A stretch of DNA of 64,000 bases, taken from contig NZ_JAGJCB010000002.1 in the NCBI RefSeq assembly GCF_017814435.1, positions 1-64,000 of the forward strand. Reading direction: 5' to 3'. This document shows positions 38,859 through 48,461 of the stretch, piece after piece. The stretch comes from Mariniflexile gromovii. GTDB taxonomy: Bacteria; Bacteroidota; Bacteroidia; Flavobacteriales; Flavobacteriaceae. Within the stretch, counting starts at the first letter, position 1; every line of letters begins with the position of its first letter. The position numbers were made by a program, and so were the translations under genes. A model generated the notes under the pieces. That model saw only the letters and a program-made list of their open reading frames with translations. It ran no database searches and was not told the origin of the DNA.

Positions 38859-38911
38859 GGAACTAATTGGCTAACGTTCTACTTAAAGTAAAATGTTTCA
38901 TAAAAAATCTG

Positions 38912-38991
38912 GTAACATTAAGGTAACATTTTAATAGCTGTTGTTTAATATTTAGATAACATACAATTTAAGCAGAATCGTTTTTTTTGCA
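38912..38991 (+). promoter_or_regulatory. PHO-box array, five units, upstream of the small CarboxypepD gene
   Basis: 7-mers start at 38912 (GTAACAT), 38923 (GTAACAT), 38934 (ATAGCTG), 38945 (TTAATAT) and 38956 (ATAACAT), each 11 bp apart with 4-bp spacers. After the last unit come 23 nt and then TTTGCA at 38986-38991. The two perfect units with TAAG between them copy the 7-4-7 layout of Pho boxes. Confidence 0.75.
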
Positions 38992-39010
38992 GTGTATTTA
39001 TAACAACACT

Positions 39011-39397
39011 ATGAAACATTTAATTTACATCACTATTTTTCTTTTTACCACTTTATCCTTTGGGCAAAACACAGGTTTAATAGTTGGAAAAGTATTGGAT
39101 AATGAGGTGAATGACGCACCATTAGTGTTAGCAAATGTTTCGGTAAAAGGAACTTCCTTAAACATAAACACCGATTTAACGGGCATGTTTGTTATTGAAA
39201 ACCTAGAAGCTGGCGATTATACCTTGGTATGTAGTTTTGCTGGTTATGATACCAAAGAAATTAGCGTGCATGTAGATGCCCTACAACCTGCAGAGGTATC
39301 ATTATCTTTGGCAGCAAGCACCATCTCATTAGGCGAGTTAGCACTTCTTACCGCTGTTGCCCAAAAAGATGATAAATCGAGTGCTTCTTTAAATTAA
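39011..39397 (+). CDS. Exported stand-alone CarboxypepD-regulatory-like protein
   Basis: The 128-residue protein has a signal peptide (MKHLIYITIFLFTTLSFGQ), then a single carboxypeptidase-regulatory-like (transthyretin-like) domain that is clearly paralogous to the N-terminal domain of the receptor at 39811: LVGKVLDNE / VVGKLTDKE, VSVKGTS / VLIKGTT and IENLEAGDYTLVCSFAGYDT / IENLEAGSYTVIFSFVGYET. No barrel or plug follows. A Pho-type array precedes it. It could be a decayed receptor or a soluble/periplasmic partner in phosphate uptake. Confidence 0.8.
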   Translation: MKHLIYITIFLFTTLSFGQNTGLIVGKVLDNEVNDAPLVLANVSVKGTSLNINTDLTGMFVIENLEAGDYTLVCSFAGYDTKEISVHVDALQPAEVSLSLAASTISLGELALLTAVAQKDDKSSASLN

Positions 39398-39472
39398 TAC
39401 AGCGTTTATTTTTTAAACCTCCTTCATTTAACCCCTTAGGTGTCATTATTTAAAAAGTTAATTTTATACTAA

Positions 39473-39540
39473 TTGTCACATTGAGCGCAGTCGAAATGTT
39501 TCTGAAATAAAGTCTTCGACAAGCTCAGACTGACATTGAG
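39473..39540. repeat. TTGAGCGCAGTCG...CGACAAGCTCAG element
   Basis: CATTGAGCGCAGTCGAAATG at 39479-39498 and GTCTTCGACAAGCTCAGACT at 39512-39531 are inverted arms, close to 38797-38858 and 61796-61871. The gap 39398-39810 holds this repeat and the next Pho array only. Confidence 0.75.
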
Positions 39541-39707
39541 GTGCTAATTGGTTTATTAGTTTCAAATAAAAAACGGATTTCATTTAAAATATATCTATCC
39601 CAAAAAAGGATGGATTTTTGGTTTTATGGCATTCTTGGTTTTGGGCAAACACCTTCCGTATTTACATAAACCCAATGTTAAATTAATGTTTAGAAATCAA
39701 CGATTAG

Positions 39708-39787
39708 ATAACATTAACATAACCCTTTTGTTACGGTTGTTTAACCTATTCATAACATCCTATTCATTTAGTGTTTCGTTCTTTGCA
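39708..39787 (+). promoter_or_regulatory. PHO-box array, five units, upstream of the TonB receptor
   Basis: Units start at 39708 (ATAACAT), 39719 (ATAACCC), 39730 (GTTACGG), 39741 (TTAACCT) and 39752 (ATAACAT), period 11. The last is followed by 23 nt and TTTGCA at 39782-39787. The -7 has TTTG but no TA, as expected of activator-dependent promoters. Confidence 0.75.
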
Positions 39788-39810
39788 CCAGATAAAAACT
39801 AAAGAATAAA

Positions 39811-42588
39811 ATGAAAAATTTAACCCTATTGTTACTATTATTTACAGCAACAATTTCATATGGACAGAACACTGGTTCTGTGGTTGGTAAACTAACCGAT
39901 AAAGAATACAATGATGAACCTTTAGCTTTCGCTAACGTATTAATAAAAGGAACCACTAAAGGAACTACTTCAGACATTGATGGTTTGTACAGTATTGAAA
40001 ATTTAGAAGCGGGTTCATATACTGTAATATTTAGTTTTGTTGGTTACGAAACACAAGAAATACCTGTAACAATTGTAGCTAACAAAGTAACGGAAGTTAA
40101 TGTTCCTATGGGAGCAAGTGCTGCATCTTTATCGGAAGTTATTATAACAACTACTGCTAAAAGAGAAAGTGAAACCGCTTTATTATTAGAGCAAAAGAAA
40201 GCGGTTGCTTTTAAAGCATCTATTGGTGCCGACGAGCTTTCTAGAAAAGGTGTTAGCGATGTTGCTACCGCTGTAACTAAAGTAAGTGGTATTTCTAAGC
40301 AAGAAGGTTCTGGTAGTATTTTTGTAAGAGGTTTAGGTGATAGATACAATATTACAACCTTAAATGGTTTACCATTACCATCTAACAACCCTTCAAACAA
40401 AAATATAGTTTTAGATATTTTTACTACCGATATTGTAGAATATGTAGGTATTAGTAAAACCTTTGAAGCTCAAAATTATGCCGATTTTGGAGGTGCTAAT
40501 ATTGACATTGTTTCTAAAAAATTCACGGGTGCTCCTTATATTGCTATTGGCGTTGGTTTAGGTGCTAACACAAATGTTTTAAAAGTAGATGATTTTTATT
40601 TACAAGATGGGCCATCATACTTTGGTTTCGATTCTGGAAAAGCTCCAAACAATCCGCTTTTACCTTATGATTATGGAACAAGTTGGGACAGACAAAATAG
40701 CAAAAACACCTTTAATAATAGTTACTCATTATCGGGTGGTAAAAAATTTAGCTTAGGTGATGAAAGTAATTTAAGTACTTTTATTACCGCATCCTTTGAT
40801 GCTGAAAACAAATATGTAGAAGGTATTGATAGAGGTAACATTACGGCGCAAGGAACCATAAACTCCGACTTCTACAAAAAGTCGTACAAGCACAATACCA
40901 ATACAACGGTAATGGGTTCTGCCGACTATAGAATAAACAGTGATAACTCATTATTGTTCACCTCTTTATTTTTAAATTCTAGTTCGCAAGATTATAGTGA
41001 GTACGAAGGTACCAATCAAAACTTTGATGGTGGTGCTTCTGGAGCTGGCGATATATCAGGTTTCATAAAACGTGGTACTTTTGATAAAACACAATTATTT
41101 GTAAATCAATTGTTAGGTAAACACGATTTTACAGAACAATGGGAAGCTAATTGGGCCGTTGGATACAGTATTTTAAATAATGTGATCCCAGACCGTATGC
41201 AAAACACCTTTGTTCCTGCGCGTGATGGATCAACAAACTACACATTCTTTACTGATTCCAGTATTCATAACCACCGTTATTTTCAAGATTTAGAAGAAAA
41301 AGAATTATCTGCAAATCTTTCTGTATCGTATAATTTCAACAAAAACGCGGAAGATGAATTTAATGGCAAAGTAACATTAGGATACTCTGGTAAAATGAAA
41401 GATATTAATTTCGATTCACAACAATACGGGTTCTTCCCAATTGCAAACAAAATTACATTTCCAGCAAGCGATATTCATAATGTAGACACCTCTTTAAATT
41501 CAACCAACTTCAATACATCTTTAGGTGATAGATCTACCTTTATTCCTCAATTATACACAGGTAATTTAGATGTACATGCCGTATTTGGAACCTTGCAATA
41601 CAACCTAACCGAAAAACTTTCGGCCATAGTTGGTGCCAGATTTGAACAATTGGAACAAAACGTTCATTTTGAAACATCTTTAGTGCCTAGTGGAGACACT
41701 TCTAATTATGCACCTGTAAACTTTTTACCAAGTTTAACTGCAAAATATAAGTTAAACGACAATCAAAATTTAAAATTTGCATCCAGTAAAACCTACACAT
41801 TACCTCAGTTTAAGGAAAAAGTAAAATTACTTTTCCAAGAAGTAACCCAAGATTATGAAGGTAACCCTAATTTATACGCATCTACCAATTACAACGCCGA
41901 TTTAGGTTGGGAATATTTCCCGAGCAATGGCGAGTTAGTTTCGGTAACAGCATTTGGAAAGTTAATTCAAAACCCCATAAACGAAATGTTTACCAACTCT
42001 TCTTCAGGAAACATTACTTATGCCAATACTGGTGAAAAAGCGGTGGCTTTTGGTGTGGAACTAGAATTAAGAAAAAACATTTTTGACATTGAAAAAGACA
42101 ACGATTTAAACGATAAATTATCTTTTGGATTCAATGGTTCATACATCAACCACAACCAAGATTTAGATCCTACTAAAGTATTTGAAGAAAATGGGTTTGG
42201 TGCTAACTTTACTTTTGATGAAGCAAAATTATCGGGAGCGTCTGATTTTTTAGCAAATGCCGACATTACATTTGTAAAAGAATTTGCTGAAAATAAAGAC
42301 ATAACCGCAACATTATCTTACGCTTACTTTTCAGATAAGTTAGCGGTAATTGGAACTCAAAGTAAAGGTAACATGGTTGATAAATCTATTAATAGATTAG
42401 ATTTTGTGGTTAAATCCAATTTAACTAAAAACTTAAAATTAGGCCTATCGTTTAAAAACATATTAGACCCAACTTACAAACGTGTTTTAGAACAAAGCGA
42501 AGTGCCAGGAAGTACCACTCAAGATGTTTTAGTAAGCTCTTATAAAGTAGGTTCTAATTTTAAACTATCATTAGAATACAAGTTTTAA
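39811..42588 (+). CDS. TonB-dependent outer-membrane receptor (probable phosphate-regulon receptor)
   Basis: The 925-residue receptor has a signal peptide (MKNLTLLLLLFTATISYGQ), a CarboxypepD-regulatory-like domain (about 20-105), a plug (about 130-240, with DELSRKGVSDVATAVTKVSGIS and RGLGDRYNITTLNGLPLPS) and a 22-strand barrel closing at NFKLSLEYKF. Its Pho-type array, the OprP-like porin and the Pit transporter nearby indicate uptake of phosphate or a phosphorylated compound. No SusD partner is present; instead a lipoprotein with beta-helix repeats follows. Confidence 0.88.
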   Translation: MKNLTLLLLLFTATISYGQNTGSVVGKLTDKEYNDEPLAFANVLIKGTTKGTTSDIDGLYSIENLEAGSYTVIFSFVGYETQEIPVTIVANKVTEVNVPMGASAASLSEVIITTTAKRESETALLLEQKKAVAFKASIGADELSRKGVSDVATAVTKVSGISKQEGSGSIFVRGLGDRYNITTLNGLPLPSNNPSNKNIVLDIFTTDIVEYVGISKTFEAQNYADFGGANIDIVSKKFTGAPYIAIGVGLGANTNVLKVDDFYLQDGPSYFGFDSGKAPNNPLLPYDYGTSWDRQNSKNTFNNSYSLSGGKKFSLGDESNLSTFITASFDAENKYVEGIDRGNITAQGTINSDFYKKSYKHNTNTTVMGSADYRINSDNSLLFTSLFLNSSSQDYSEYEGTNQNFDGGASGAGDISGFIKRGTFDKTQLFVNQLLGKHDFTEQWEANWAVGYSILNNVIPDRMQNTFVPARDGSTNYTFFTDSSIHNHRYFQDLEEKELSANLSVSYNFNKNAEDEFNGKVTLGYSGKMKDINFDSQQYGFFPIANKITFPASDIHNVDTSLNSTNFNTSLGDRSTFIPQLYTGNLDVHAVFGTLQYNLTEKLSAIVGARFEQLEQNVHFETSLVPSGDTSNYAPVNFLPSLTAKYKLNDNQNLKFASSKTYTLPQFKEKVKLLFQEVTQDYEGNPNLYASTNYNADLGWEYFPSNGELVSVTAFGKLIQNPINEMFTNSSSGNITYANTGEKAVAFGVELELRKNIFDIEKDNDLNDKLSFGFNGSYINHNQDLDPTKVFEENGFGANFTFDEAKLSGASDFLANADITFVKEFAENKDITATLSYAYFSDKLAVIGTQSKGNMVDKSINRLDFVVKSNLTKNLKLGLSFKNILDPTYKRVLEQSEVPGSTTQDVLVSSYKVGSNFKLSLEYKF

Positions 42589-42607
42589 AAACATAACTTA
42601 ACAATTA

Positions 42608-42646
42608 AAAAAAGGTGATTAACAATTAGTTAGTCACCTTTTTTAT
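42608..42646 (+). terminator. Terminator after the TonB receptor
   Basis: A7-GGTGA (42607-42618) pairs with TCACC-T6 (42634-42644) through one mismatched arm extension, followed by T-rich DNA. Confidence 0.8.
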
Positions 42647-42704
42647 TTACAAAACAAGGTATGTAAATTTTATGTTAACTAATCTTGAGGTTCATTAAAA
42701 ATAC

Positions 42705-42762
42705 TTAACAAGAAGGTAATAAAGGCTTAACCAATTAAAAACAGTTTGTGGCTTTCTTTGCA
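42705..42762 (+). promoter_or_regulatory. PHO-box array, three units, upstream of the beta-helix lipoprotein
   Basis: TTAACAA 42705, GTAATAA 42716 and TTAACCA 42727 repeat every 11 bp. After the last, 23 nt lead to TTTGCA at 42757-42762. Confidence 0.7.
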
Positions 42763-42793
42763 GCATAAATCAAAACGAAAAAAAATATTTAAA

Positions 42794-43909
42794 ATGAAAA
42801 AATCAATTTTAGCAATAGCGGTAATCGTAACACTTGCATTTACAAGTTGTACCGATGACAACAATCCATCAACTCCAAAAAGCACTTTCGAATTGAAGAT
42901 CGATGACTTAAAAGGTGATATCACTGATGGCACAGTAACTTTAGATCCATCTCAAACTTACACTTTAACAGGTGCGTTAATAGTAAAATCTGGAGCTACT
43001 TTAACTATTCCTGCTGGAACAACTATAAAAACTAGCACAACTGCTCTTAATACCTCTCTATATATAGGTGTTGAAAGAGGCGCAACCATCAATATCAATG
43101 GTGAAGCTAATAACCCTGTAGTTATGACTTCTGGACAAGCGGCACCTAAAGAAAGTGATTGGGGCGGATTGGTAATTTGTGGTGATGCAAAAGTAAATAC
43201 TGGAGATAATGGAACTTCTGAAGTAGGTGGTTTAAGTTTCGGAGGAAACAATAATGCCGATTCTTCTGGAAAAATCAACTTTTTAAGAATAGAATATACA
43301 GGAGCTAAGTTTTCATCAGACAAAGAATTTAACGGTGTTTCTTTCTTTGGTGTAGGTAGCGGAACAGAAGTATCAAACATTTATGCTTTTGAAAGTGGTG
43401 ATGATGGTATCGAATTTTTTGGTGGTGCTGTAAACGCTTCTAACTTGGTTATTGTAAATGCATACGATGATTCTTTAGATTTTGCTGATGGCTACCAAGG
43501 TACTATTACCAATGTTTACATTTCAGGTGTATCTAAAGCTGGTATTGAAGGTTCTAACAATCAAGGAAATGATATTGCTACTCCAATGACCGATGCTAAA
43601 TTAATAAATGTTTCTATTGTGAAGGGTGCTGATGCTAAGTTTACAGCTGGTGAACAAGCTATCAACTTTAAAGAAGGTGGTGGAAAACAAACTTACACTA
43701 ACTTGTTTGTTTCTGGTATCGATACATTTGCCAAACTAGATACAGGTTCTGGTGCCACTGCTAGAATTGACGCTGGAGATTTTAAAGTTAACGGTAAAAA
43801 CTTTGTAAGTACAAGTAACTTAACTACTGATTATGTTTCTACTGAAACTGGCGCTGGTAATGGAGCTACTTTACCTACTTGGGCTACTAAAATTTCTAAA
43901 AACAACTAA
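42794..43909 (+). CDS. Exported lipoprotein with beta-helix repeats (Pho cluster)
   Basis: From ATG 42794 the protein has 371 residues: lipobox FTSC (Cys19), then a low-complexity DNNPS linker and a right-handed parallel beta-helix-like repeat region (SGATLTIPAGTTIKTSTTAL, VISGVSKAG-like turns, GDDGIEFFGGAVNASNLVIVN). It is likely on the cell surface, downstream of the receptor, and may bind phosphorylated ligands or help the receptor; this is inference. An earlier in-frame ATG at 42746 would place 16 residues before the signal and is rejected. Confidence 0.82.
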   Translation: MKKSILAIAVIVTLAFTSCTDDNNPSTPKSTFELKIDDLKGDITDGTVTLDPSQTYTLTGALIVKSGATLTIPAGTTIKTSTTALNTSLYIGVERGATININGEANNPVVMTSGQAAPKESDWGGLVICGDAKVNTGDNGTSEVGGLSFGGNNNADSSGKINFLRIEYTGAKFSSDKEFNGVSFFGVGSGTEVSNIYAFESGDDGIEFFGGAVNASNLVIVNAYDDSLDFADGYQGTITNVYISGVSKAGIEGSNNQGNDIATPMTDAKLINVSIVKGADAKFTAGEQAINFKEGGGKQTYTNLFVSGIDTFAKLDTGSGATARIDAGDFKVNGKNFVSTSNLTTDYVSTETGAGNGATLPTWATKISKNN

Positions 43910-43934
43910 TTTTCTTAGTAAAGAAAACATACAA

Positions 43935-43972
43935 TACAAAAAAAGCATCCCGAAAAAGGGATGCTTTTTTAG
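43935..43972 (+). terminator. Terminator after the beta-helix lipoprotein
   Basis: AAAAGCATCCC/GGGATGCTTTT with loop GAAAAA and flanking A and T runs can act in both directions. Confidence 0.9.
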
Positions 43973-43994
43973 TTTAGTTTAAAAAAAAATTACT

Positions 43995-44330
43995 TTATTG
44001 AATTTCAGATTCTTTTAAATTGGCTATAGCGTTATTGCTATAATCTACTTCCTTTACAGTTTCATTTGTATAATAAAACCATTTGCCGACTTTTTTACCA
44101 TTATCATAATTTCCCGAAACAATTTTTTTGCCTGCTGTATCAAAACTTAACCACTCTCCTTGTAATTTACCATCTGCCGTATAAGTTCCAGTTTGACTTA
44201 CAACGCCATTGTCGTGATAATAAACAACTTCAATTAAATTAGTGTCTTTGTTAAGTTTTAAATCTCTCTTTTGTTGCCCAAAAGAAACCACAGTAATTAA
44301 AAAGGCAAAAAACAAAATACATTTCTTCAT
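43995..44330 (-). CDS. YwqK-like MORN-repeat exported protein
   Basis: The 111-residue protein (start Met at 44330; signal MKKCILFFAFLITVVSFGQ) has three MORN-like units: NGVVSQTGTYTADGKLQGEWLSF, DTAGKKIVSGNYDNGKKVGKWFYY and TNETVKEVDYS. The databases call such proteins YwqK antitoxin-like, but there is no toxin gene here, so that name is not supported. It stands alone on the minus strand inside the Pho cluster, facing the beta-helix gene. Confidence 0.8.
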   Translation of the reverse strand: MKKCILFFAFLITVVSFGQQKRDLKLNKDTNLIEVVYYHDNGVVSQTGTYTADGKLQGEWLSFDTAGKKIVSGNYDNGKKVGKWFYYTNETVKEVDYSNNAIANLKESEIQ

Positions 44331-44373
44331 AATTATGCGGGTTTTAACATTATATATCAAATATAGTCATTTG

Positions 44374-44413
44374 ATAACCTTTAAACAACACTTAGGTAAC
44401 ATTAAATTAACAT
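44374..44413 (+). promoter_or_regulatory. Orphan PHO-box array (four units)
   Basis: TAAC (44375), CAAC (44386), TAAC (44397) and TAAC (44408) repeat every 11 bp on the plus strand. The expected TTTGCA is absent at the 23-nt position; TTTTCAG lies 3 nt off. No coding sequence begins here, but a terminator ends the region at 44637. Confidence 0.6.
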
Positions 44414-44439
44414 TAAAAATTTAATATATTGATTTTCAG

Positions 44440-44475
44440 AATATTACCAATGTTAAATTTAACATTGGTAATATT
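44440..44475. repeat. Perfect 36-bp palindrome
   Basis: The half-site AATATTACCAATGTTAAA is followed at once by its exact reverse complement, with no loop. It could be a strong hairpin in RNA or a dimer-binding site in DNA. Confidence 0.9.
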
Positions 44476-44607
44476 AATAATTAGTTAATATTAATATTAC
44501 AATTAGCTAAAATTAAAGGTTGATATTCGCATTGTCTTAAGACATAACAATTAGTTTTTCATATAATCTATTAGTTTTTGTCGACTACATTATCATGATT
44601 TCTAATG

Positions 44608-44637
44608 AGCTGCCTTTGGCCAAGGCAGCTTTTTTTA
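44608..44637 (+). terminator. Strong terminator upstream of the porin
   Basis: AGCTGCCTT/AAGGCAGCT with loop TGGCC is followed by T7. No gene on the plus strand ends before it, which points to an unannotated transcript. Confidence 0.85.
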
Positions 44638-44659
44638 TTATTTTAAATTTAATTTTCAG

Positions 44660-44695
44660 GAAACATTTAGTTAACATTGGTTTTGGTTCTTTGCA
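44660..44695 (+). promoter_or_regulatory. PHO-box pair upstream of the porin
   Basis: GAAACAT 44660 and TTAACAT 44671 are spaced by 11 bp, then 12 nt to TTTGCA (44690-44695). The 12 is exactly 23 minus one period. Confidence 0.7.
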
Positions 44696-44716
44696 GCGAC
44701 AAAAACTAAAATAATA

Positions 44717-45922
44717 ATGAAAAACTTAAAAGCAATTTTAATTGTTATTCTTGTTGCTACGCTTCAAATTAATGCACAAGATACTGCTACTCCTATTACT
44801 GAAACCCCTAAAAAAGAATGGTTCGAATCTTTTAAAATAAGAGGTTATGCCCAAGTAAGGTATAATGGCTTATTTCAAACAAACCCAGATTTGACCTGCG
44901 AACAATGTGACAAATCTTGGGGTGGTGATAGTCAATTTTTCTTCAGACGTATCCGATTGGTTTTTTACGGACAAATTCATCCAAGAGTATACTTCTACAT
45001 TCAGCCTGATTTTGCAAATGCAACCGGTGGAAATCAACAATTTGGACAAATTCGTGATGCTTATTTTGACCTTGGTTTAGATGCCAAAAACGAATTTCGT
45101 TTCAGAATTGGACAAAGTAAAATTCCATTTGGTTTTGAAAACATGCAATCTAGCCAAAACAGGTTGCCACTAGACCGTAATGATGGTTTAAATAGTGCCG
45201 TAAAAAACGAACGTGATTTAGGGATCTTTTTTTATTGGGCACCTGAAGAAATAAGAAAGCGCTTTTCAATGCTTACCAGAGAAGGCTATAAAGGAACTGG
45301 AGATTATGGTGTTTTTGGATTGGGTATTTATAATGGCCAAACTGCTAACGTTGCCGATTTGAATGATAAAAAGCATGTGGTAGCCCGATTAACTTATCCA
45401 TTTAAAATTGGTTCCCAAATTTTTGAACCAGGAATTCAAGCATACACAGGGCAACATACTATAGATCCTGATGATATATCAGATGGTGTTCAAACAAATG
45501 ATGACAATACATATATAGACCAACGTGTAGGCTTTACAGCTGTTTTATATCCTAAGCCATTTGGTTTTCAAGCTGAATACAATTTTGGTAGAGGCCCTGA
45601 ATTTAATAAAGAAACCCAAGCCATAAGTGTTGAGAAATTACATGGTGGTTATCTTCTATTAAATGCAAAATGCTCGATTAAAGACCAGTTAATCTATCCA
45701 TTTACTCGAATTCAATATTACAATGGTGGCAAAAAACATGAATTAGATGCCAGAAGTTATGAAGTAAAAGAACTAGAATTAGGCGTGGAATGGCAACCTT
45801 ATAAAAACTTTGAAGTTGTGGCTATGTACACCTTTTCAGATAGAACTTATGAAGATTTCATCAATCAAGACAATAACCAAACAGGAAGTTTGTTGCGATT
45901 ACAATTTCAAGTGAACTTTTAA
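44717..45922 (+). CDS. OprO/OprP-like phosphate-selective porin
   Basis: The 401-residue outer-membrane barrel has a signal peptide (MKNLKAILIVILVATLQINAQ) and the OprP-family pattern: SFKIRGYAQVRYNG at the first strand, FFFRRIRLVFYGQIHPRVYFYIQPDF, RIGQSKIPFGFENMQSSQNRLPLDRNDG and the terminal GSLLRLQFQVNF. OprP proteins form trimeric pores selective for phosphate or polyphosphate. It is single-transcribed behind a Pho-type pair and followed by the Pit transporter. Phosphate selectivity is inferred, since the Lys ladder cannot be judged by eye. Confidence 0.85.
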   Translation: MKNLKAILIVILVATLQINAQDTATPITETPKKEWFESFKIRGYAQVRYNGLFQTNPDLTCEQCDKSWGGDSQFFFRRIRLVFYGQIHPRVYFYIQPDFANATGGNQQFGQIRDAYFDLGLDAKNEFRFRIGQSKIPFGFENMQSSQNRLPLDRNDGLNSAVKNERDLGIFFYWAPEEIRKRFSMLTREGYKGTGDYGVFGLGIYNGQTANVADLNDKKHVVARLTYPFKIGSQIFEPGIQAYTGQHTIDPDDISDGVQTNDDNTYIDQRVGFTAVLYPKPFGFQAEYNFGRGPEFNKETQAISVEKLHGGYLLLNAKCSIKDQLIYPFTRIQYYNGGKKHELDARSYEVKELELGVEWQPYKNFEVVAMYTFSDRTYEDFINQDNNQTGSLLRLQFQVNF

Positions 45923-46005
45923 TCCATTAACAATATCTCTTAGCTAAAGAATCAATATATTTAAAATATTATACTAAGTATTTACTGTTTGTGAAATTAA
46001 AAAAT

Positions 46006-46052
46006 ATAACAATTACGTAACTTAGCATCTTGAAATACATTAGATATTTGCA
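46006..46052 (+). promoter_or_regulatory. PHO-box pair upstream of the Pit transporter
   Basis: ATAACAA 46006 and GTAACTT 46017 are 11 bp apart, followed by exactly 23 nt and TTTGCA at 46047-46052. Confidence 0.7.
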
Positions 46053-46067
46053 AACTTATTTTTTATT

Positions 46068-48461
46068 ATGGACAATATTTACTTATTAATGATAGTTGCC
46101 CTAGCGGTATTAGCCATTGCCGATTTAGTGGTGGGTGTAAGCAACGATGCTGTTAACTTTTTAAATTCCGCTATTGGATCTAAGGCTATTTCATTTAAAA
46201 CAATTATGATAGTTGCCAGTATTGGCGTTGCGCTAGGTGCTGTTTTTTCAAGTGGCATGATGGAGGTTGCTAGGTCTGGAATTTTCAACCCTCATGAATT
46301 CATGTTTAATGAAATCATGATTATTTTTATGGCGGTAATGATAACAGACATCCTGTTGTTAGACTTTTTTAATACCGTAGGGATGCCAACTTCTACTACA
46401 GTCTCTATAGTTTTCGAATTATTGGGAGCTTCTGTAGCCATGGCACTTATTAAAATAGGGCACAATGGTGGAAGTTTTTCTGATGTTGTTAACTACATAA
46501 ACACTTCTAAAGCTACCGAAATCATTTTTGGCATCTTATTATCGGTGGTTATTGCCTTTTCTGTGGGTGCAGCGGTTCAATGGGTATCAAGGTTGTTATT
46601 ATCATATAACTATGAAAAACAAGCCAATTGGGTTGGTGCCATTTTTGGTGGTATTGCCATTACATCTATTACCTATTTTATTTTTATGAAAGGTATAGGA
46701 GGAACAACCTATGCCAAACAAAGTTATGATATTATAGGCGGTTCTACCATTAAAGAATTTTTAAGCAATCAAGCACCTTTAATTATTTTTGTAAGTTTAA
46801 TTTTATGGTCATTGCTTTCATATGCTTTAATCTCCTTTGCTAAATTAAATATATACAAAATTGTAATTATTATTGGAACGTTTGCTTTAGCGCTAGCATT
46901 CTCTGGAAACGATTTAGTTAACTTCATAGGTGTACCTATTGCTGGTTGGCAATCTTACACGGCTTGGGCTGGTTCAGGCGTATCTCCTGAAGCCTTTAGC
47001 ATGGGCTTTCTTGCAGATAAAGTTCCTACTCCAACCTTTTTATTGGTTATAGCAGGTTTTGTGATGGTAGCTACTTTATGGCTTTCTAAAAAAGCAAAAT
47101 CGGTAACCGAAACCGAAATCAATTTATCCAGAGAAGGTGATGGTAAAGAACGTTTTGAACCTAACTTTTTATCTCGTGGTTTTGTGAGGTTAGCTGTTGG
47201 AATTTCTGAAATGTCCTCTTATATCCTACCAAAAACTTGGCAAACTAAAATTGATAAACAGTTTGAAAAACCTGTAATTAATTTAGCAAAGTCCAAAACG
47301 CACGAATTACCGGCTTTCGATATGGTACGTGCTGCCGTAAACCTAATGGTTGCTGCTATCCTTATTTCGTTAGCAACCTCAATGAAACTGCCTTTATCAA
47401 CCACATATGTAACATTTATGGTGGCGATGGGTTCCTCTTTAGCCGATAGAGCTTGGGGTGCTGAAAGTGCCGTTTACAGGGTTGCTGGTGTGTTAAATGT
47501 TATTGGTGGTTGGTTTTTTACTGCCATTATAGCCTTTGTTGCTGCTGCAATAATTGCGTACTTATTAAATTGGAACGTTGCCGTTATGGTACCTATTTTA
47601 CTTTTGGTAGCTATCTTCCTATTGGTTAGAAACTATATAGCTCACAGAGAAAAATCGAAAGAAGCTAAAGCTGAAGATAGTTTAACAAAAGCTGAAAGTA
47701 GTTCTATCCAAGGTGTTATTCACGAAAGTGCCAACAATATTGCTAGTGTTGTAAAGCGTGGTAATAAAATATACACCAATGCCATCAATGGATTGGCAAA
47801 ACAAGATTTAGCACTACTGAAAAAGAACAAAAAACAAATCGTGAAATTATCTAGTGAAGTAGATGAATTGCGCGATAATATTTTCTATTTCATTAAAAAT
47901 TTAGATGAATCGAGTCTTGCAGCGAGTAACTTTTACATTCATGTATTGGGATACCTTCAAGACATGACTCAATCTTTAGAATATATTACTAAGGTTAGCC
48001 ACAAACACGTTCAAAACAATCATAAAAAACTTAAATTCAACCAAATAAAAGAATTAAAGGAAGTTGATGAACGTTTTGAAACCTTCTTCAATAACACTCA
48101 AAAAGCTTTTGATTCTAGATCTTTTGAAGAAATTGGTATTATTTTAGGAAGAAAACAAGAGATTTTAGGTTTGGTAACTTCAAAAATCCAAAAACAAGTG
48201 GAACGTACCCGTACAGAAGAATCGAGCCCTAAAAACACAACCTTATATTTTAGTTTATTGTTGGAGACTAAAGATTTACTGAATGCTTCCATGAATCTTT
48301 TAGAAGAATATTATAACGCTCACGATAGTTCTGTTAAACCAGCAACTCCTGTGCAAGCGCCTGCCAAAACAGCAAAACCTGTTAAAACAGCAGAGCCTAA
48401 AGAACCTAAAATAGAGTCGCCATCAAGCGAAACATCAGACTCTTCAGAACCTAAAGAATAA
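46068..48461 (+). CDS. Pit-family inorganic phosphate transporter fused to a PhoU-like domain
   Basis: The 797-residue protein has an N-terminal Pit permease of about 12 helices with the paired PiT signatures (DLVVGVSNDAVNFLNSAIGS at about 20-39 and the second, GNDLVNFIGVPIAGW, near 284). An extended C-terminal cytoplasmic region (about 535-740) is a helical PhoU-like domain (SKESANNIASVVKRGNKIYT...HLQDMTQSLEYITK-type). A disordered P/E/K tail ends it. Pit permeases cotransport phosphate with H+ or Na+. The fused PhoU half would tie uptake to the phosphate signalling state. Confidence 0.88.
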   Translation: MDNIYLLMIVALAVLAIADLVVGVSNDAVNFLNSAIGSKAISFKTIMIVASIGVALGAVFSSGMMEVARSGIFNPHEFMFNEIMIIFMAVMITDILLLDFFNTVGMPTSTTVSIVFELLGASVAMALIKIGHNGGSFSDVVNYINTSKATEIIFGILLSVVIAFSVGAAVQWVSRLLLSYNYEKQANWVGAIFGGIAITSITYFIFMKGIGGTTYAKQSYDIIGGSTIKEFLSNQAPLIIFVSLILWSLLSYALISFAKLNIYKIVIIIGTFALALAFSGNDLVNFIGVPIAGWQSYTAWAGSGVSPEAFSMGFLADKVPTPTFLLVIAGFVMVATLWLSKKAKSVTETEINLSREGDGKERFEPNFLSRGFVRLAVGISEMSSYILPKTWQTKIDKQFEKPVINLAKSKTHELPAFDMVRAAVNLMVAAILISLATSMKLPLSTTYVTFMVAMGSSLADRAWGAESAVYRVAGVLNVIGGWFFTAIIAFVAAAIIAYLLNWNVAVMVPILLLVAIFLLVRNYIAHREKSKEAKAEDSLTKAESSSIQGVIHESANNIASVVKRGNKIYTNAINGLAKQDLALLKKNKKQIVKLSSEVDELRDNIFYFIKNLDESSLAASNFYIHVLGYLQDMTQSLEYITKVSHKHVQNNHKKLKFNQIKELKEVDERFETFFNNTQKAFDSRSFEEIGIILGRKQEILGLVTSKIQKQVERTRTEESSPKNTTLYFSLLLETKDLLNASMNLLEEYYNAHDSSVKPATPVQAPAKTAKPVKTAEPKEPKIESPSSETSDSSEPKE

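Follow-up and report, generated by a model that had tools for sequence, protein, structure and literature searches.

We analyzed a 64,000-nt stretch of the Mariniflexile gromovii genome (the window; contig NZ_JAGJCB010000002.1, positions 1 to 64,000), in which five neighboring genes lie on the + strand between 39011 and 48461 and encode a short CarboxypepD_reg-like protein, a receptor, a lipoprotein, a porin, and the phosphate transporter Pit. Each gene is preceded by TAAC units repeated with an 11-bp period. The distance from array to -7 box is fixed, and the box is without the TA of the housekeeping motif. The spacing, the absent TA, and the 11-bp Pho-box-like layout recur across genera, which supports an earlier sequence-only reading of these promoters as a likely Pho regulon class. 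We consider it very likely, judging from the sequences, that the five promoters constitute a PhoB-dependent class of Pho regulon promoters in which the activator would replace the -33 contact. The genome holding the window comprises 4.28 Mb in 52 contigs and is 99.98% complete.

We defined the gap of a promoter as the number of nucleotides from the end of the last exact TAAC to TTTG. The sequence-only reading had described TAAC units with an 11-bp period before the five genes, and our measurements bore this out: the last exact unit lies 25 nt before TTTGC at four promoters and 14 nt before it at the porin promoter, one 11-bp turn apart (Table 1). The gaps of 23 and 12 nt given in that reading are the same as 25 and 14, counted from TAACAT, but the contrast between them is partly a question of unit strength. 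Similarly, the arrays do follow an 11-bp grid, but several of their units are imperfect (TAAT, AAAC, TTAC, or TAGC). Within the window, the grid position at gap 14 matches TAAC at 0 of 4 bases upstream of pit, 2 of 4 upstream of the receptor and short-protein genes, and 3 of 4 upstream of the lipoprotein gene. Among the receptor promoters of relatives, the same position holds at least a 3/4 match to TAAC in 17 of 29 cases (TTTACA in 11 of 29); therefore, the difference between 12 and 23 partly reflects which units are strong.

Start-site mapping in Flavobacterium psychrophilum places TAnnTTTG at -12 to -5 (PMC9723704). The features of a housekeeping sigma-A promoter in Flavobacteria, TA at -12/-11 and TTG near -33, are both missing from the five window promoters, consistent with what had been noted from the sequence: none of the five octamers has the TA, and none of the five promoters has a TTG at spacings of 14 to 24 nt before the octamer. 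The loss extends to relatives. With TTTG or TTTA accepted, TA was present in 3/75 pit, 0/29 receptor, 1/19 short-protein, 0/16 lipoprotein, and 0/37 porin (gap 14) promoters, a total of 4/176. A TTG at a spacing of 16 to 20 nt was comparably rare (8/75, 1/29, 2/19, 2/16, and 1/37, respectively). For comparison, 533 other upstream regions contain 696 TTTG sites, of which 155 are preceded by TA, the commonest dinucleotide there; the corresponding counts are 106 of 693 on the opposite strand of these regions and 540 of 7,504 in coding sequence. The true share of TA in housekeeping promoters should be higher than 155/696, given that many TTTG sites in those regions are not part of promoters. What replaces TA is specific to the gene: GA at pit, so that T-12 is lost; mostly TT or GT at the receptor, short-protein, and lipoprotein genes; GT at the porin gene; and CA at the plcP genes of four same-genus genomes. 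The 63 pit sites with a gap of 25 have GA in 47 cases, CA in 7, GT in 5, TA in 2, and AA in 2.

To assess conservation, we examined pit upstream regions from the best 80 of at least 588 confirmed candidates, drawn from titled records that include isolates and metagenome bins; with the window, this gave 81 regions. The closest relatives of the window pit gene in this sequence search are Flavobacteriaceae. An exact TAAC-N7-TAAC pair was found upstream of pit in 73 of the 81 regions. TTTG follows at exactly 25 nt in 63 of them and TTTA or TTTG in 71, and any other gap to TTTG occurs three times or fewer. Misses were kept in these counts, namely the eight regions without an exact pair and two regions (L077 and L093) without TTTA or TTTG at 25 nt. 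Compared with the mean of dinucleotide shuffles (in parentheses), exact pairs were found in 74/83 pit (1.44), 26/44 receptor (0.63), 20/23 short-protein (0.38), 14/45 lipoprotein (0.74), and 10/54 porin (0.85) regions. Neighboring genes served as controls, and in the sense direction they yielded 2/40 regions for MORN (0.46) and 0/59 for HD (0.66).

The prevailing gaps are 25 and 58 for the short-protein, receptor, and lipoprotein genes and 14 for the porin gene. We counted TAAC copies on a 3-mod-11 grid in loci with a TAAC at gap 25 (14 for the porin). On-grid copies, anchors included, number 136/169 for pit (66 anchors), 98/115 for the receptor (29), 58/62 for the short protein (19), 46/53 for the lipoprotein (16), and 57/74 for the porin (37); the anchors lie on the grid by definition, and the informative copies are the remaining ones. 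As to further exact copies, receptor and short-protein promoters have them mainly at gaps 36, 58, and 69, lipoprotein promoters at gaps 58 and 69 (an exact or one-mismatch unit is at 36 in 16/16), pit promoters at 36 (64/66), and porin promoters at 25 and 36. Off the grid, a TAAC at gap 63 was present in 3/16 lipoprotein promoters. Overall, with main gaps of 14, 25, 36, 58, and 69, the array keeps to one helical phase and a set distance relative to the core promoter, and the two spacings seen in the window are a single grid, 14+11k, differing in which units are strong. The units and distances are constant across relatives and the spacer bases vary. The species are related; thus, these counts do not represent independent events.

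We then considered how far the layout can be told from chance. In the M. gromovii genome, the pattern TAAC-N7-TAAC-N{15,45}-TTTGCA had six matches, four of them at a gap of 25 nt, compared to five matches in a control with the letters backwards. When the gap was fixed at 25 with zero mismatches, 26 genomes gave 48 matches versus 3 in the control. A degenerate scan of the M. gromovii genome, with two mismatches allowed, was dropped as evidence: it returned 121 matches versus 113 in the control, and its 14-nt version returned 94 versus 132. Because this pattern performs no better than the control, degenerate matches are meaningless on their own. We also built a profile from sequence alone, using 45 sites of relatives and none from the window, and ran it on the 4.28-Mb genome. 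Its first four matches were the window promoters of the receptor (expectation value [E] 1.3e-5), pit (2.9e-5), short-protein (2.8e-4), and porin (0.009) genes, and the weaker matches include one before phoB (contig C5, minus strand, E 0.14).

Two regulators of the OmpR family (PF00486) were found in the genome, at C5 and C10. The C5 regulator scores best against the PhoB models of NCBIfam and its kinase against PnpS and PhoR; the C10 regulator scores best against RprY. The genes at C5, phoB and phoR, are on a different contig from the window, and their linkage to the window genes is known from other genomes (9/20). Of 20 phoB regions that we fetched, eight have a receptor and/or lipoprotein gene divergent beside phoB-phoR, and one more has it co-directional just upstream. 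In seven of the eight divergent regions, an array stands before the receptor or lipoprotein gene (TAAC or TAAT units, TTTG or TTTA accepted). At one locus, L272, the genes for Pit, porin, lipoprotein, receptor, PhoB, and PhoR follow one another in a single run; arrays precede its porin gene (gaps 14 and 25) and its pit gene (gap 25, GATATTTG), and none is listed before its receptor gene. Close relatives of the C5 regulator occur in 50/50 and 97/100 genomes. Co-occurrence of phoB and arrays was set aside as a test; it is uninformative, with all 50 genomes examined having a close PhoB relative. No PstS-type protein (PBP_like_2, PF12849) was found in this nearly complete genome, and it is possible that phosphate is sensed without Pst.

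Beyond the window, M. gromovii has a plcP-like gene, in which a PF12850 phosphoesterase is followed by a PF13528 glycosyltransferase; a second plcP paralogue is located on contig C13. Upstream are TAAC, TAAT, and TAAC on the grid; the gap is 25 in this gene and in three same-genus orthologues (octamers CAATTTTG, CAACTTTG, CACCTTTG, and CACCTTTG), and, among the more distant homologues listed, five have the pair at gap 58 and one at gap 14. PlcP acts on lipids under low phosphate, and Pho boxes have been predicted for it in marine bacteria (PMC4796936). The carriers of the layout include the phosphate genes pit, the OprP-type porin gene, and plcP, but also moxR and the gene of an outer-membrane receptor. 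In Flavobacterium johnsoniae, the described PHO regulon has phoBR beside genes for a TonB-dependent transporter, a lipoprotein, and OprP, and phosphate depletion raises the transporter by 8.0, the lipoprotein by 9.9, and PlcP by 8.6 log2 units (Lidbury et al., PMC8115612). The transporter and lipoprotein are of the same kinds as those of the window and may be their homologues; the main text of that paper never uses the word "promoter." We tie the arrays to PhoB and phosphate because of the gene content, the linkage to phoBR, the array before plcP, and the induction in F. johnsoniae, and the phosphate link drawn from the window sequence is strengthened by the last three of these together with the array before phoB.

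The array before phoB is in the reverse orientation. A reverse TAAC pair precedes phoB in 31/31 regions (that of M. gromovii plus 30 loci among 50 genomes), compared to 2/31 in the backwards control; the M. gromovii phoB has no forward pair and does have a reverse one (L145 6300-6440, C5). Counted as pair-site combinations, a TTTA or TTTG lies 42 nt beyond the reverse pair in 19 cases and 36 nt beyond it in 15. The phoB upstream regions also contain the promoters of divergent neighbors. Because other genomes have a receptor gene at this place, the M. gromovii pair is perhaps shared with, or left over from, a formerly divergent receptor promoter. Reverse pairs were also found in 23/40 MORN upstream regions, compared to none in the control (the distance is 35 nt in 13 combinations), and in 41/59 HD upstream regions, where they are presumably the arrays of the divergent neighbor gene seen from the other side. 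MORN was rejected as a clean negative control: it fits in the sense direction, but these 23 of 40 regions carry the reverse pair. Several promoters with reverse arrays keep the TA in the -7 box, as in TATCTTTA before phoB and TATATTTG before MORN.

In Escherichia coli, PhoB promoters serve phosphate genes and place the activator over the -35 region, where it holds sigma in lieu of a missing contact. The arrays described here are longer than those of E. coli, and, relative to the usual E. coli spacing, their strong proximal unit is often one turn further upstream. The core is CTGTCAT in E. coli and TAAC here, and the -7 box here is of the TAnnTTTG type without its TA. The likeness lies in the 11-bp head-to-tail units: an E. 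coli Pho box, read by PhoB and sigma-70, consists of such direct repeats with seven conserved and four less conserved bases, and its activator interacts with sigma (PMC4415409). Within the same phylum, the PhoB of Bacteroides fragilis PhoRB binds the pstC promoter in an electrophoretic mobility shift assay and controls phosphate genes; however, it acts on pstSCAB, and PstS was not found in M. gromovii, and the accessible part of that report gives no binding consensus (PMC3547664). We found no Pho-box consensus for Bacteroidota in the open-access papers searched. By the features tested, namely the 11-bp direct repeats, the fixed phase, the phosphate genes among the targets, and a PhoB-PhoR pair that is present and, in other genomes, genetically linked, the five promoters mostly qualify as Pho regulon promoters; what sets them apart is their TAAC units, their 14+11k grid, and a -7 box without TA.

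We propose the following mechanism. During phosphate shortage, PhoR would phosphorylate its neighbor, the PhoB-type regulator at C5, which would then bind the 11-bp TAAC units head to tail on one face of the DNA. Taking TAnnTTTG at -12 to -5, the units would lie near -26, -37, -48, -59, -70, and -81, so that each of the five promoters would have a unit near -37, the place of the -33 element (exact, or AAAC at the porin promoter). Bound PhoB may hold sigma-A there, substituting for the contact of the missing TTG, and sigma-A could thereby open a -7 box in which T-12, A-11, or both are missing. Such a -7 box would be too poor to open alone; therefore, low basal expression is expected.

Several observations weigh against this interpretation. 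Two of the four exact gap-25 matches in the M. gromovii genome precede the moxR operon (C20) and an OMP_b-brl_3 receptor gene (C1), neither with a known phosphate role. The genome scan that the sequence-only reading had suggested as a check thus succeeded by half, and because these two sites use the same geometry, the layout alone does not name the regulator. In the profile search, the fifth match (C1:141579, E 0.024) precedes a 164-amino-acid protein, and the window lipoprotein promoter, plcP, moxR, and the C1 receptor gene are absent among the 57 matches with E up to 10 (150 of 7,184 candidates scored). Six of the genomes behind the eight pit regions without an exact pair were searched, and PhoB is present in 6/6. 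Some spacings deviate from the rule, with gaps of 24 in six short-protein regions and of 23 in four receptor and two lipoprotein regions, and off-grid TAAC copies occur at gap 30 in 11/66 pit and at gap 19 in 8/37 porin promoters. The C5 regulator and its kinase fall below the NCBIfam equivalog cut-offs, as does the RprY-like regulator at C10. No receptor or lipoprotein gene is nearby in 11 of the 20 phoB regions, and in the nine linked regions the receptor and lipoprotein matches range from 27% to 51% identity, the low end being among those called receptor. The plcP orthologues of two other genera (L185 and L186) lack the site. Lastly, OprP was not induced in F. johnsoniae (log2 -1.3; PMC8115612).

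The moxR and outer-membrane receptor sites could be accommodated if one geometry served two regulators, with PhoB acting at the phosphate genes and RprY at moxR and some outer-membrane genes, and the two told apart by the bases flanking TAAC. About 11 of the 48 gap-25 matches in the 26 genomes have a moxR-like signature (sorted by eye, with the gene checked in M. gromovii only), and the second TAAC is preceded by A or G in 54/63 pit sites and by T in the moxR-like sites among those matches. However, the flanks overlap, as TTAACA occurs in 33/37 porin units. This idea extends the assignment of the five promoters to PhoB rather than replacing it, and we regard it as quite possible, although we lean somewhat against it. 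The moxR sites are perhaps an RprY promoter class, and a geometry common to both regulators is plausible. Sites with the moxR signature were seen in ten other genomes of the 26 scanned, again sorted by eye; the signature of the C1 receptor site recurs in five same-genus genomes.

Alternatively, the RprY-like regulator at C10 could work all of the arrays, so that the phosphate genes would belong to an RprY regulon. Just two regulators of this family turned up in the genome, both of the OmpR type, and the M. gromovii moxR promoter has the same 25-nt geometry. In Riemerella anatipestifer, a two-component regulator called PhoP binds sites with a TTTAACA core, including the moxR promoter, and moxR expression falls in the mutant (PMC9603813). 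This regulator is probably of the RprY type, judging from the residues encoded by two published quantitative PCR primers (PMC5399024), which fit the C10 proteins better than the C5 proteins (GY.[LV]GAD and KG.GLG; short stretches, translated by hand). The targets listed in the available text of PMC9603813 are not the phosphate genes of this window. Against control by RprY, pstS is up 8-fold in the Riemerella double mutant (PMC5399024). The position of receptor and lipoprotein genes beside phoB-phoR (eight divergent, one co-directional), the reverse array before every phoB, and the plcP array shared by four same-genus genomes also argue against it, and we consider such control improbable. It is highly implausible that the spacing is functionless and was simply inherited by descent within one conserved cluster of related species whose counts are not independent, given that the units are fixed while the spacer bases vary, that the porin promoter keeps 14 while the others keep 25, and that the unlinked plcP and phoB also carry arrays.

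We tentatively suggest a broader generalization, in which Flavobacteriaceae would possess a general class of activator-dependent sigma-A promoters. These would have OmpR-family units at 14+11k nt before TTTG and a -7 box that has lost T-12 and/or A-11 in a gene-specific and conserved manner, with the activator substituting for the -33 contact and, in part, for the signal that melts the -7 box. The geometry would be common to PhoB and RprY, and reverse arrays approximately 35 to 42 nt upstream would act on promoters that contain TA, those of phoB and MORN among them. The assignment of the five window promoters to PhoB gives the Flavobacteriaceae, a group important in phosphorus cycling in sea and soil, a Pho-box consensus and a promoter geometry that can be tested. 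Pho regulons could be read from genomes without pst, and the promoters form a natural series for asking how the sigma-A of Bacteroidota opens a -7 box without TA.

Table 1. Promoter features and genes discussed in the text; positions are those of the window unless a contig (C) or locus (L) is named, and gaps are in nucleotides.
Feature	Position	Strand	Details
Array, short-protein gene	38911..38964	+	TAAC 38913, 38924, 38957; TAGC 38935; TAAT 38946; all on 11-bp grid
-7 octamer, short-protein gene	38982..38989	+	TTTTTTTG; without TA; gap 25
Short protein, CarboxypepD_reg-like	39011..39397	+	128 amino acids; Pfam PF13715
Array, receptor gene	39707..39760	+	TAAC 39709, 39720, 39742, 39753; TTAC 39731
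-7 octamer, receptor gene	39778..39785	+	GTTCTTTG; without TA; gap 25
TonB-dependent receptor	39811..42588	+	925 amino acids; CarboxypepD_reg and Plug domains; Pfam PF00593, PF13715, PF07715
Array, lipoprotein gene	42704..42745	+	TAAC 42706, 42728; TAAT 42717; AAAC 42739
-7 octamer, lipoprotein gene	42753..42760	+	TTTCTTTG; without TA; gap 25
Lipoprotein	42794..43909	+	371 amino acids; no Pfam family at E 0.001
MORN gene	43995-44330	-	-7 box TATATTTG at 44365-44358 (- strand), TA kept
TAAC-N7-TAAC pair, reverse to MORN gene	44397..44411	+	35 nt before TTTG of MORN promoter
Array, porin gene	44648..44679	+	TAAT 44650; AAAC 44661; TAAC 44672
-7 octamer, porin gene	44686..44693	+	GTTCTTTG; without TA; gap 14
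Phosphate-selective porin O/P family (OprP-type)	44717..45922	+	401 amino acids; Pfam PF07396
Array, pit gene	46005..46025	+	TAAC 46007, 46018; kept in relatives
-7 octamer, pit gene	46043..46050	+	GATATTTG; G in place of T of TA; gap 25
Pit-type phosphate transporter	46068..48461	+	797 amino acids; Pfam PF01384
moxR operon promoter	C20:14673-14718 (L148)	-	TAAC pair, 25-nt gap to TTTGC; pattern scan
OMP_b-brl_3 receptor promoter	C1, L147 5542-5610		TAAC pair, gap 25; TA-containing -7 box TAGTTTTG; pattern scan

Some minor observations concern individual genes. The sequence-only reading had named a Pit-PhoU protein among the targets; the Pit part is confirmed by Pfam, but the PhoU match in the C-terminal part is weak (E 0.11, below the cut-off). 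The sole NCBIfam match of the lipoprotein is to a lipoprotein family, over residues 1 to 31 and below the cut-off. Among the eight pit regions without an exact pair, three (L075, L076, and L135) come from genomes that carry two pit copies, and the matched copy alone was read. The pit upstream regions of L102, L113, and L116 (two Lutibacter and one Flavobacteriaceae) have no exact TAAC pair and no TAAC at gap 25, and PhoB is present in these genomes. Finally, the window porin groups with the porin of locus L092 (Confluentibacter lentus, 73% identical) and lies outside the porin family found at the same place in 53 other loci, and its gene may have been replaced under a retained promoter logic.

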